A program made the position numbers and the translations under genes. Below, piece by piece: positions 13,065 to 16,978 of a stretch of 57,090 nucleotides of DNA; position 1 is the first letter of the stretch, and each line of letters opens with the position of its first letter. This DNA is from Stenomitos frigidus ULC18 (GTDB lineage Bacteria; Cyanobacteriota; Cyanobacteriia; Leptolyngbyales; Leptolyngbyaceae), in the NCBI RefSeq assembly GCF_003003795.1, contig NZ_PVWK01000149.1, forward strand, positions 1 through 57,090. Reading direction: 5' to 3'. A model generated the notes under the pieces. The model did no database searches. It had not been told where the DNA came from and saw only the letters and a program-made list of their open reading frames with translations.

Positions 13065-13180
13065 AGAAGCAAAGGGTGAAGGGGCAAGCGGTCTGTCGAA
13101 AAATCTAGGCAGTGTTGGAATTTCTCCGGACGGGGAACGCTAGCGCAGAAGAATAGAGTGGTAGATGCACCCTGATTTCG

Positions 13181-13211
13181 CCCTGGAGCCTTGGCTCTGG
13201 GGTGTTTTTTT
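13181..13211 (+). terminator. Intrinsic terminator on the + strand
   Basis: CCCTGGAGCC at 13181-13190 pairs with GGCTCTGGGG at 13193-13202, and a run of seven T follows at 13205-13211. This is a textbook rho-independent terminator. It faces right, but no + strand protein gene ends nearby: the left neighbour cobM is on the minus strand and ldcA ended 1 kb earlier. It may therefore end a small RNA starting somewhere after 13065. Confidence 0.65.
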
Positions 13212-13236: not shown

Positions 13237-13382
13237 TTAGAGACTGTAAAGAAATAATGTCATAGTCTGTAGTGGTCAGTCATCATCAGTCAGAGAAAAG
13301 CTGATAGCTGATAGCTGATAGCTGATAGCTGATAGCTGATAGCTGATCCAAAAGTATGCAGTTATTTTTTAACAAGTGCTTA
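13237..13382. mobile_element. MITE-like element, copy 1
   Basis: The left end (TTAGAGACTGTAAAGAAATAATG) and the right end (TTATTTTTTAACAAGTGCTTA) form imperfect terminal inverted repeats, best seen as TGTAAAGAAATAA against TTATTTTTTAACA. A second element with matching ends is at 53698-53826. The interior here holds about seven copies of GCTGATA (13300-13347), followed by ATCCAAAAG, which is also in copy 2. The right end supplies the stop codon of lgt at 13380-13382. There is no coding capacity, so movement would need a transposase from elsewhere. Confidence 0.55.
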
Positions 13383-14561: not shown

Positions 14562-16295
14562 ATGCCCAAGCGTTCCTCCCCGGTCTTGCCCAACGATCGA
14601 CCCAACCAACCGACCGACGCGCGTATCTCCCCGCCTTTCCTCTGGAATACTGTTCAACGGACGGTAATCAAGTTTGTAGAGCCTCTTGGCTTTCAGCAGA
14701 CGATCGCAGCACCCGATCAGACCGAGGCGGTTATGGTAGCCATGCAGCGTTTAGTTACCATGATCAACACGCTGCAAGCATCGCCACGATCGCCGCTAGA
14801 GGACACCTCCAAACGCTTGCTGAGCAAGGCGCAAACGCTTGCAGCCTTAATCCCCTACGTTAGCGAAGAAGCCTATGACGTTTTGGAAGCATTGCAGGAG
14901 GCAGAAAGCAGGCAGACTCAACACTCAACACTCAACGCGCTTCCTCCCGGTTCCCCCTTGATCACGATCGATACCCTCATCCCTTCGCTCCTTTGGTGTC
15001 TGGCGCGGAGTTCTTACAGCATGATGCAGCTCATTGAAGGCGCCAGGGTAAGGTGCTGGCAACCAGAGCAAGGCTGGGCTTTCGGCATGTTACGGTTAGT
15101 CGTCATGCTCAAAGCAGAAACATCGATCGAGCATTGGTGTTTTGATCTAGCAACGGGATATCCGGTTGAGGCACTGTTAGAGCCAACCGCGATCGTCCAA
15201 TCCGATGAGCATCTTCTTCCCATCCGACCGCTTGCTTCGGCTGAAGATGGCACGAGCAGCGCTGACTGTCAGGCTGGTCGACAACTGGAGGCGATCTTAC
15301 AATCACTAAAAACCGAACGCTTTGGGCTTCAAACACTCCTGCAAGGAATAGCGGTAGAGCTGCTACAACCAGGATCGGACTGGCAAGCAGGCAACCTCCA
15401 ACTCCAATTGGGCTTTGACTTTAGCGCTCAAACCCTTGATGCTATCAGCAGCCACGAAGACCTGCGCTTGCCCGAATTAATTGAAGCGGAACTGATGGAG
15501 GAAGGGAGCAGGGTCACTCCAAATAAAGCAACACAATTTTCGACAGCAGCACCATTCACGCAGACGATCGCGAGTCGTATGACCCAAGCCCATGTCTCTA
15601 TAGTCAACCCGGTGGGTCAGGCGCTCAGTCCGACAACCCTCGTGCAAGTAACAGATGCAGATAGACTGGGGCGCTACACTCAATTGTTCACGCAGCAACA
15701 GCTTGCGCAAAGCCTTGTCCAACCGCACCACCAGCAGACCCACAGCGATGATGAGCAGACCCAACTGAGGCTGATTGTGCAAGCAGCGATCGCCTGTGCG
15801 CACCAGCTTAGAACGCCTGACATTGATCTTGCGCAACCTATGCTGCTCATGGACGAACTCGTGCCAAAACTGTTATGGTCACTGACAAGCAGCACGGGCG
15901 AAATCATGCAACTGCTCGGAGGCATTCCCGCACAAGTGCTGCAGCCCAATGCCGACTGGCAGCAAGGGACATTGCGACTGGTTGCAGCGCTGCACCTCAA
16001 AGCGGCTGATGTTGAATACATACTTGATTTGTCAACGGGTCGATCGGTACTCACAAACATGACGCCATTGGAATTGGGCACGATCGTTCAAACTAGCACC
16101 ACGATGGGCTCACAACCAAACACGATCGAAACGCTGACAGCCGACCTAACGCACCAGCTTGATCATGCCATGTTGGCATACAGAATCTTGCGAGACGGTG
16201 TTGCGATCAAATGGCTTGAAGATGTTGAGCAAGATTGGCAGCCTGGTGCAATGCAGCTTAGTTTGAGTCTTGCATTTGTAGCTGATACACACTGA
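14562..16295 (+). CDS. Novel repeat protein coupled to an orphan gas-vesicle-type gene
   Basis: I do not recognise this 577-residue protein. It contains four degenerate repeats near residues 139-190, 242-288, 433-482 and 532-573. Each has a leucine-rich helix followed by the pattern LLxGIxVxLLQPxxDWQxGxLxLxLxF, for example LLQGIAVELLQPGSDWQAG and LLGGIPAQVLQPNADWQQG. Repeats A and C also share a tail (FDLATGYPV and LDLSTGRSV). The N-terminus has a helical segment (about 25-110), then a short direct nucleotide repeat (CAACACTCAACACTCAAC) encoding residues near 118-126. Residues 225-245 and 375-400 look like linkers. The stop TGA shares its A with the ATG of the following GvpF-like gene, so translation is coupled and the two proteins probably work together. 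Confidence 0.7.
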   Translation: MPKRSSPVLPNDRPNQPTDARISPPFLWNTVQRTVIKFVEPLGFQQTIAAPDQTEAVMVAMQRLVTMINTLQASPRSPLEDTSKRLLSKAQTLAALIPYVSEEAYDVLEALQEAESRQTQHSTLNALPPGSPLITIDTLIPSLLWCLARSSYSMMQLIEGARVRCWQPEQGWAFGMLRLVVMLKAETSIEHWCFDLATGYPVEALLEPTAIVQSDEHLLPIRPLASAEDGTSSADCQAGRQLEAILQSLKTERFGLQTLLQGIAVELLQPGSDWQAGNLQLQLGFDFSAQTLDAISSHEDLRLPELIEAELMEEGSRVTPNKATQFSTAAPFTQTIASRMTQAHVSIVNPVGQALSPTTLVQVTDADRLGRYTQLFTQQQLAQSLVQPHHQQTHSDDEQTQLRLIVQAAIACAHQLRTPDIDLAQPMLLMDELVPKLLWSLTSSTGEIMQLLGGIPAQVLQPNADWQQGTLRLVAALHLKAADVEYILDLSTGRSVLTNMTPLELGTIVQTSTTMGSQPNTIETLTADLTHQLDHAMLAYRILRDGVAIKWLEDVEQDWQPGAMQLSLSLAFVADTH

Positions 16296-16978
16296 TGTAT
16301 ACCTACGCTTTTTTAAAAACGCCCCTCACACCCTTGACGCTCCCAAAAGGAATCACCGCCTTTGTCCAAACCACGAATGCCGGTCAACTGTCAGCGATCG
16401 TTGAGCCAGCAGTCACTTTGGAGCACCTCCCGCAAGACGACGCATCATTAGTACAAGCAGTCTTAGCGCACGATCGGGTGATTCGTAGCCTGTTCTTGCA
16501 GACCACTATTCTGCCTCTGCGGTTTGGTACGAGTTTTAACTCCTTGCCAAGCTTACTTGCACACCTACAGGCGCATCGGCAGGCATATCTGGGCAAACTT
16601 GCTCAACTGGAAGGTCAAGCGGAATACATGCTTAAGCTCACTCCCATACCGTTTCCAGAGGTAGCGATCGCCTCAGACATTAGAGGGAAAGACTACTTTA
16701 TTGCCAAAAAGCAACAGTATCAAGCCCAGCTGTTGTATCAAAACCAGCAGCAAGAAGCTTTAAGGCAAATTGAGCAGTCAGTTGCTCAAACCTATCCGCA
16801 TCATTACATCAACGAGTCACAAACTGGAGAGAAGACGCTTTATCTATTAGTTGCGCGCCATCTTGACAGCCAACTTTGGCAGCAGATTCAAAGCTTGCAG
16901 CAAAAAAGTCCGCACTGGGAGCTAACTCTGGGAGAAGCGTTGCCACCGTATCACTTTGTAAGCGACACAGTTTCGTAA
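16295..16978 (+). CDS. gvpF: GvpF/GvpL family protein (orphan)
   Basis: The 227-residue protein fits the GvpF/GvpL family of gas vesicle assembly proteins. It starts with MYTYAFLKTP, then has LPKGI, LSAIVEPAVTLEHL, LVQAVLAHDRVIRSLFLQTTILPLRFGTSF (the family core) and YLGKLAQLEGQAEYMLKLTP. In gas vesicle clusters GvpF contacts the shell protein GvpA. No gvpA, gvpC, gvpN, gvpJ, gvpK, gvpG or gvpV is in this window, so it is an orphan here. It begins on the stop codon of the repeat protein upstream (TGATG), which suggests a dedicated two-protein unit. Confidence 0.85.
   Translation: MYTYAFLKTPLTPLTLPKGITAFVQTTNAGQLSAIVEPAVTLEHLPQDDASLVQAVLAHDRVIRSLFLQTTILPLRFGTSFNSLPSLLAHLQAHRQAYLGKLAQLEGQAEYMLKLTPIPFPEVAIASDIRGKDYFIAKKQQYQAQLLYQNQQQEALRQIEQSVAQTYPHHYINESQTGEKTLYLLVARHLDSQLWQQIQSLQQKSPHWELTLGEALPPYHFVSDTVS

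Follow-up and report, generated by a model that had tools for sequence, protein, structure and literature searches.

Two forward-strand genes lie in tandem in the window, by which we mean the whole stretch of 57,090 nucleotides analyzed here, and the stop codon of the first is interleaved with the start codon of the second (Table 1). The upstream gene encodes a protein that we call KGK4, a name coined in this analysis, and the downstream gene encodes a member of the GvpF/GvpL family. The two open reading frames confirm the one-base TGATG overlap between a 577-residue protein and a GvpF-family gene that an earlier note on this DNA had described, and the same overlap is kept in five relatives (L122, L123, L124, L125 and L132). 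In comparison with Tildeniella nuda, dN/dS is 0.25 for the KGK4 gene and 0.17 for its partner, and two further pairs, in which dS is high, give 0.18 and 0.20 for KGK4; by this measure KGK4 is under purifying selection. Its 5' neighbor in the window is an LGT gene on the opposite strand (PF01790, E 3e-82). In the region of 13159-13211 and 13299-13347 the window has a match to the Rfam family NsiR1, a nitrogen stress-induced RNA best known from heterocyst formers (56.4 bits, gathering threshold 39), with seven exact copies of AGCTGAT close by.

Table 1. Features of the KGK4 locus, with positions in the window and residues of KGK4 where applicable
Feature	Position	Strand	Description	Basis
KGK4 gene	14562..16295	+	577 aa, internally duplicated KGK-repeat protein	ORF; PF08872 E 4e-9
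First helical hairpin, residues 55-118	14724..14915	+	MazG-derived by sequence comparison, without ExxD	PDB 3crc, hhalign, NCBIfam
Unit A (helix-helix-beta), residues 133-213	14958..15200	+	Repeat copy 1 inside (158-183)	Model, hhalign
Unit B, residues 236-291	15267..15434	+	Repeat copy 2 inside (260-285); best PF08872 stretch	Model, hhalign
Second helical hairpin, residues 366-417	15657..15812	+	No MazG sequence signal	Model
Unit A', residues 427-512	15840..16097	+	Repeat copy 3 inside (452-477)	Model, hhalign
Unit B', residues 519-577	16116..16292	+	Repeat copy 4 inside (544-570)	Model, hhalign
TGATG stop/start overlap	16293..16297	+		Sequence; one base common to both ORFs
gvpW-type gene	16295..16978	+	227 aa, second GvpF/GvpL-family protein	PF06386 E 4.3e-32; tree 100/100

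Identity of the GvpF/GvpL-family gene

The 227-aa protein matches PF06386 over residues 1-222 (112.5 bits, where the cut-off is 23.6), and so shares this family with GvpF and GvpL over nearly its full length. The NCBIfam models for GvpF (cut-off 350) and GvpL (cut-off 200) give it 16.4 and 17.5 bits. A 71-protein tree, comprising 17 gvpF rows and 54 gvpW-type rows (from 53 of the 80 best loci described below, plus the window's own), splits the two kinds with 100/100 support, the bootstrap being not fully settled, and the window protein stands on the gvpW branch, apart from cyanobacterial gvpF, where it groups with the Tildeniella nuda protein (98/89). The same side holds the Microcystis aeruginosa and Aphanizomenon flos-aquae proteins from the gvpW place of the gas-vesicle cluster. 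Because the tree separates the two kinds this firmly, we assign the window gene on sequence grounds to the gvpW type, which is the second of the two GvpF/L paralogues in cyanobacteria and with whose products it shares the Pfam family, a similar length and a side of the tree. It nevertheless differs from the gvpW of gas-vesicle clusters, since the cluster-linked rows form a separate group (15 rows, 99/96) that excludes the window protein, and since the window gene lies on contig C26, with the gvp cluster on C129, does not follow gvpG or gvpV, and overlaps KGK4.

Two paralogues of this family are usual in gas-vesicle genomes of the phylum. PF06386 and PF00741 were found in an identical set of 46 of 292 cyanobacteria, and the number of PF06386 proteins in these gas-vesicle genomes is two in 40 of the 46, three or four in 4, and one in 2. 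By score they fall into two kinds, at about 180-240 and about 75-142 bits, and both are annotated within one cluster on plasmid p4 of Nostoc sphaeroides, where the second PF06386 gene follows a reverse-strand gas-vesicle gene and precedes genes for an ArsA-family and an AAA ATPase. The available text of one study names the two genes after gvpG as gvpV and gvpW, with alr2245 as gvpW of Anabaena PCC 7120 (PMC7204071). One genome of the sample, G262, holds two gvpW genes (on C148 and C206), one of them a gvp-cluster gene and the other preceded by KGK4. Moreover, according to the portion of a genome report that was accessible, gvpW is absent from Planktothrix PCC 11201 (PMC5259702), where our scan found a KGK4-linked gvpW-type gene (L191). 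Because G262 carries both kinds and L191 is present where gvpW was called absent, the KGK4-linked gvpW may, judging from these sequences, be an old paralogue rather than a moved cluster gene. GvpV to GvpZ are called not essential in the accessible part of PMC9501494, and the open-licence literature, as far as its texts were available, yielded no stated mechanism for GvpW.

Architecture of KGK4

The repeats of KGK4 had earlier been described as four degenerate copies that matched no family. All four could be located, and their family is now identified: they are KGK domains, with PF08872 matching the protein over its curated cut-off in three stretches (37.4 bits against 25.6) and matching 7 of 8 KGK4 members. 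Among ungapped 26-mer pairs the highest score, 72, falls around copies 2 and 3, where none of 300 shuffles exceeded 46, and copy 4, weak in ungapped pairs (scores 11-23), has profile support (unit B against B', E 1.3e-18). Residues 25-292, in the first half of the protein, align with residues 345-577, in the second, at E 2.1e-42, and units A and A' do so at E 2.8e-35 (hhalign). KGK4 is one module, made of a strand, a helical hairpin and two KGK units, that has been duplicated. An AlphaFold2 model from 26 sequences (pLDDT 73.9, pTM 0.62), which superseded one from 8 sequences (pLDDT 56.8), gives each half a short strand, the helical hairpin and a pair of helix-helix-beta units (A and B). Neither model gave a Foldseek match in the PDB at E <= 0.001, the best hits, at about 0.3, being unrelated proteins, and the best VIA-align score (Z 4.7) concerned helical pairs; for these reasons we claim no fold. 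KGK domains pass the Pfam cut-off in 72 of the 292 cyanobacterial genomes. In the accessible text of a 2018 paper KGK proteins are small and adjoin a 'KGK clade' of cyanobacterial dynamin-like proteins, and the function of the domain is termed enigmatic (PMC5827413). KGK4 differs from those proteins of about 120 aa, as they appear in that text, in having 577 residues, four units, an internal duplication and a MazG-like hairpin, and from other KGK proteins in that it stands beside gvpW and its long matches occur only in gas-vesicle genomes of our samples.

The first hairpin matches E. coli MazG in the PDB (3crc) at E 2.5e-8 and a set of 13 cyanobacterial MazG proteins at E 3e-19 (hhalign), and the MazG models of NCBIfam recognize all 8 KGK4 members (best E 1.1e-7), the window's own protein weakly (0.0036). 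The shared region includes a PYxxEExYEV motif, and these comparisons indicate that the hairpin derives from MazG. The complete metal site of MazG is EExxE...ExxD. EExYEV...ExxD is present in all 13 cyanobacterial MazG proteins, whereas the KGK4 match spans only about 55-60 residues and ends before ExxD, and no conserved EExYEV...ExxD columns were found in 26 KGK4 rows, where E103 is invariant, E102 is replaced by P or D in 7 of the 26, and position 106 varies among E, D, Q and H, so that EExxE is not conserved either. Because the match stops before ExxD and positions 102 and 106 vary, KGK4 is very probably not a working MazG pyrophosphatase. VIA-align of the KGK4 model with MazG 7yh5 gave Z 2.3 over 61 residues only. 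The second hairpin was also considered as MazG-related and this was rejected, as its hhalign E-values of 0.1 and 0.017 are not significant; its relation to the first hairpin is likewise doubtful by hhalign (probability 9.8%), and the two are taken to correspond because of their place in the duplication and in the model.

Distribution of KGK4 and its gene neighborhood

The assembly to which the window belongs measures 6.98 Mb in 167 contigs, the window's contig being C26, and gvpA, N, J, K, F and G are all found on C129. PF00741 has three matches in this genome, all on C129 and labelled gvpA, gvpJ and gvpK, and PF06386 finds the canonical gvpF on C129, the window protein and no others. The earlier remark that no shell gene occurs in the 57 kb therefore holds for the window's contig, which gave no match to PF00741, the gvpA family, and does not extend to the genome: with the gvp cluster on C129, 'no GvpA' is true for the window only, and the description of the pair as one without GvpA has to be withdrawn. 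As to the genes gvpA, gvpC and gvpN across the genome, the first and last are present on C129, and a 326-aa gene at the gvpC place of that cluster matches neither GvpC nor another family. gvpV was not found in the C129 cluster; an ORF there (L008:14990-15295) was considered as gvpV and rejected, having no Pfam match and no likeness to Nostoc gvpV. The gene at the gvpC place (L008:9940-10920) shares a segment with the genome's own GvpN (495 aa, L008:11042-12529; phmmer E 1.8e-6), in which several EEVALA repeats can be seen by eye.

For the comparison between genomes we counted as KGK4 a match of at least 240 model positions, a cut chosen after the list was seen, and as gvpA-positive a PF00741 match of the gvpA, J or K type. 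The count leaves out many hits at model positions of about 40-110, which are MazG genes, a partial relative of 155 positions in a gvpA-positive genome (G229), and KGK units that stand singly and cover about 45-115 positions, some of them in genomes without gvpA (G111, G074, G030, G301 and G321); it includes a KGK4 split in two reading frames (G027), one with a single TAA (G328) and one on two contig ends (G324). The phylum search scored at most four candidates per genome, with matches listed to E of about 3e-8, the search of the window's order scored nearly all candidates, and the two samples have G000, G060, G185 and G289 in common. Among the matches listed, long KGK4 is present in 12 of 46 PF00741-positive and 0 of 246 negative cyanobacteria of the phylum sample (Fisher 6e-11, uncorrected for kinship), and the 12 genomes, again among the matches listed, are spread over seven families. 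Within the window's own order it is present in 19 of 34 PF00741-positive and 0 of 8 negative genomes (p 0.004, likewise uncorrected for kinship). Two genomes of one genus show the same contrast, G328 having both KGK4 and PF00741 and G329, which is 85% complete, having neither. A link between KGK4 and the gas-vesicle system is thus well supported. Since a long match is absent, among the matches listed, from 34 of the phylum sample's 46 gas-vesicle genomes, gas vesicles do not generally need KGK4.

The view of the pair as fixed is borne out by tandem arrangement in 7 of 7 genomes of the genus and in 14 of the 19 KGK4-bearing genomes of the order (n = 42), with 3 of the others divergent at about 2 kb and 2 apart, and in the phylum sample a KGK4-type gene immediately precedes gvpW in 7 of the 43 other genomes with gas-vesicle genes (the one in G027 being split). 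A survey of genes adjacent to this branch of the gvpF family in cyanobacteria, covering the best 80 of 200 gvpW loci, found a same-strand KGK4 gene immediately 5' of gvpW in 20, all from Leptolyngbya-, Oscillatoria-, Laspinema- and Planktothrix-type genomes, which is no frequency in nature because the ranking of the 80 named loci reflects their similarity to queries among which KGK4-linked gvpW was abundant; 39 of the 80 are in or by gvp genes, 1 has KGK4 nearby on the other strand and 20 have neither. One locus in one of the 20-locus classes of these best 80 of 200 (L160) has a gvpV-like gene 3 kb upstream as well. The pairing thus occurs in other genomes, and the family that KGK4 matches, PF08872, is one of unknown function, neither a gas-vesicle nor a housekeeping family. 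At two loci a protein kinase gene (Pfam Pkinase) overlaps or abuts the start of KGK4 (L082:8608-10527 and L099:3336-4835).

These distributions bear on whether KGK4 might be a passenger, drawn from the many KGK proteins of cyanobacteria and kept beside gvpW by linkage only. KGK domains are indeed common in cyanobacteria and most gas-vesicle genomes have no KGK4, yet KGK4 is not beside gvpW in G129, G213, G011 and G170 of the phylum sample (nor in G307 and G328 of the order), and because those four genomes carry gvpA-family genes all the same, linkage alone does not explain the association. Together with the purifying selection and the overlap conserved in relatives, this leaves the passenger reading rather improbable. 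The idea of a repurposed GvpF partner complex, put forward in the earlier note and taken here to mean that the pair serves some function other than gas vesicles, fares worse still and we consider it very unlikely. It could draw on the separation of the gene from the gvp cluster in this genome, and on two genomes of the order in which PF00741 has no match and a PF06386 protein scoring like gvpW is retained (G309:C1:1503221-1503895 and G320:C49:32346-33005); neither of these, however, has KGK4, and their proteins suggest relics or missing contigs. The gene is of the gvpW type, all genomes with long KGK4 have a PF00741 match (in the samples of 292 genomes from the phylum and 42 from the order), and the window's own genome carries a gvp cluster.

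A candidate accessory module for gas vesicles

We propose an accessory role in gas vesicles for KGK4, which would probably act as a scaffold without catalysis and as a partner of GvpW in shell assembly, a reading by analogy to which we give a probability of roughly 55%. The KGK4-gvpW pair would then form an accessory module of the gas-vesicle system, located apart from the main gvp cluster, in which the one-base overlap would cause the two proteins to be made in a fixed ratio and KGK4 and GvpW would bind each other. KGK4, as a scaffold or co-chaperone, would present GvpW to GvpA-type shell proteins during vesicle seeding or growth, and its duplication would offer two copies of one surface. Gas-vesicle shell protein is very hydrophobic. 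The analogy for a role in its handling comes from Bacillus megaterium, where, in the part of PMC11445434 that was accessible, GvpF is proposed as a shell-protein chaperone and the contact of GvpL with the shell protein requires GvpS, K and J. Because GvpW is another branch of the GvpF/L family, a GvpA-type protein is its most likely client, and because KGK4 shows the one-base overlap and purifying selection and follows gas-vesicle genes, it is most simply understood as a stoichiometric partner.

KGK4 could instead be a regulator or sensor of gas-vesicle production, whose dead MazG-like hairpin senses a nucleotide or kinase signal and so controls GvpW. This would suit its MazG-derived part and the protein kinase gene found directly upstream of KGK4 in G255 and G129 (Pkinase E 1.1e-51 and 4.5e-26), with a similarly sized ORF in that position in G262. 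The metal site, however, is not conserved, and the window has at that place not a kinase but the LGT gene on the other strand, and we therefore hold regulation to be unlikely, although less so than the passenger reading. 

Returning to the scaffold reading, what is known here is gvpW and the KGK domain, and what is new is the link between gvpW and KGK4. The pairing appears to be undescribed, as no connection between the two was found in open-licence literature; neither was one between gvpW and MazG, nor, in those texts to the extent they were accessible, between KGK domains and gas vesicles. Because KGK4 sits outside gvp clusters, mining of the clusters would miss it. Its presence, following gas-vesicle genes across several families, offers a concrete gene and a concrete candidate complex for shell-protein handling, and a gas-vesicle link would place KGK domains in a functional setting. 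For cyanobacterial gas vesicles as ultrasound reporters, KGK4 is a candidate assembly factor.

A second gene outside the core set also follows gas vesicles. In the phylum sample, with at most four candidates scored per genome, a Cdc48-like protein (E <= 1e-150) is present in at least 44 of 292 cyanobacteria, 44 of 46 gvpA-family-positive and 0 of 246 negative, and it looks like a near-universal gas-vesicle gene that is often unlinked. The idea that KGK4 excludes the ArsA and Cdc48 genes was considered and, as regards Cdc48, rejected, the gas-vesicle-type Cdc48-like gene being present in 24 of 25 gas-vesicle genomes searched, those with KGK4 included. More tentatively, KGK4 and GvpW, perhaps with the Cdc48-like ATPase, might form a module for shell-protein handling or quality control apart from the core gvp cluster, in which KGK4 would be an undescribed duplicated pseudo-MazG/KGK scaffold; we regard this wider version as possible and clearly less probable than the scaffold role itself. 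The window's own genome has Cdc48-like genes at G000:C155:31022-32869 and C105:78538-80301, and in many gvp clusters such a double-AAA ATPase gene lies near gvpW, for example at L091:11650-13491 on plasmid p4 of Nostoc sphaeroides. Of the 39 cluster-linked loci, 36 have a gene downstream of gvpW that is labelled as an ArsA-family double ATPase (as at L091:9708-11612).
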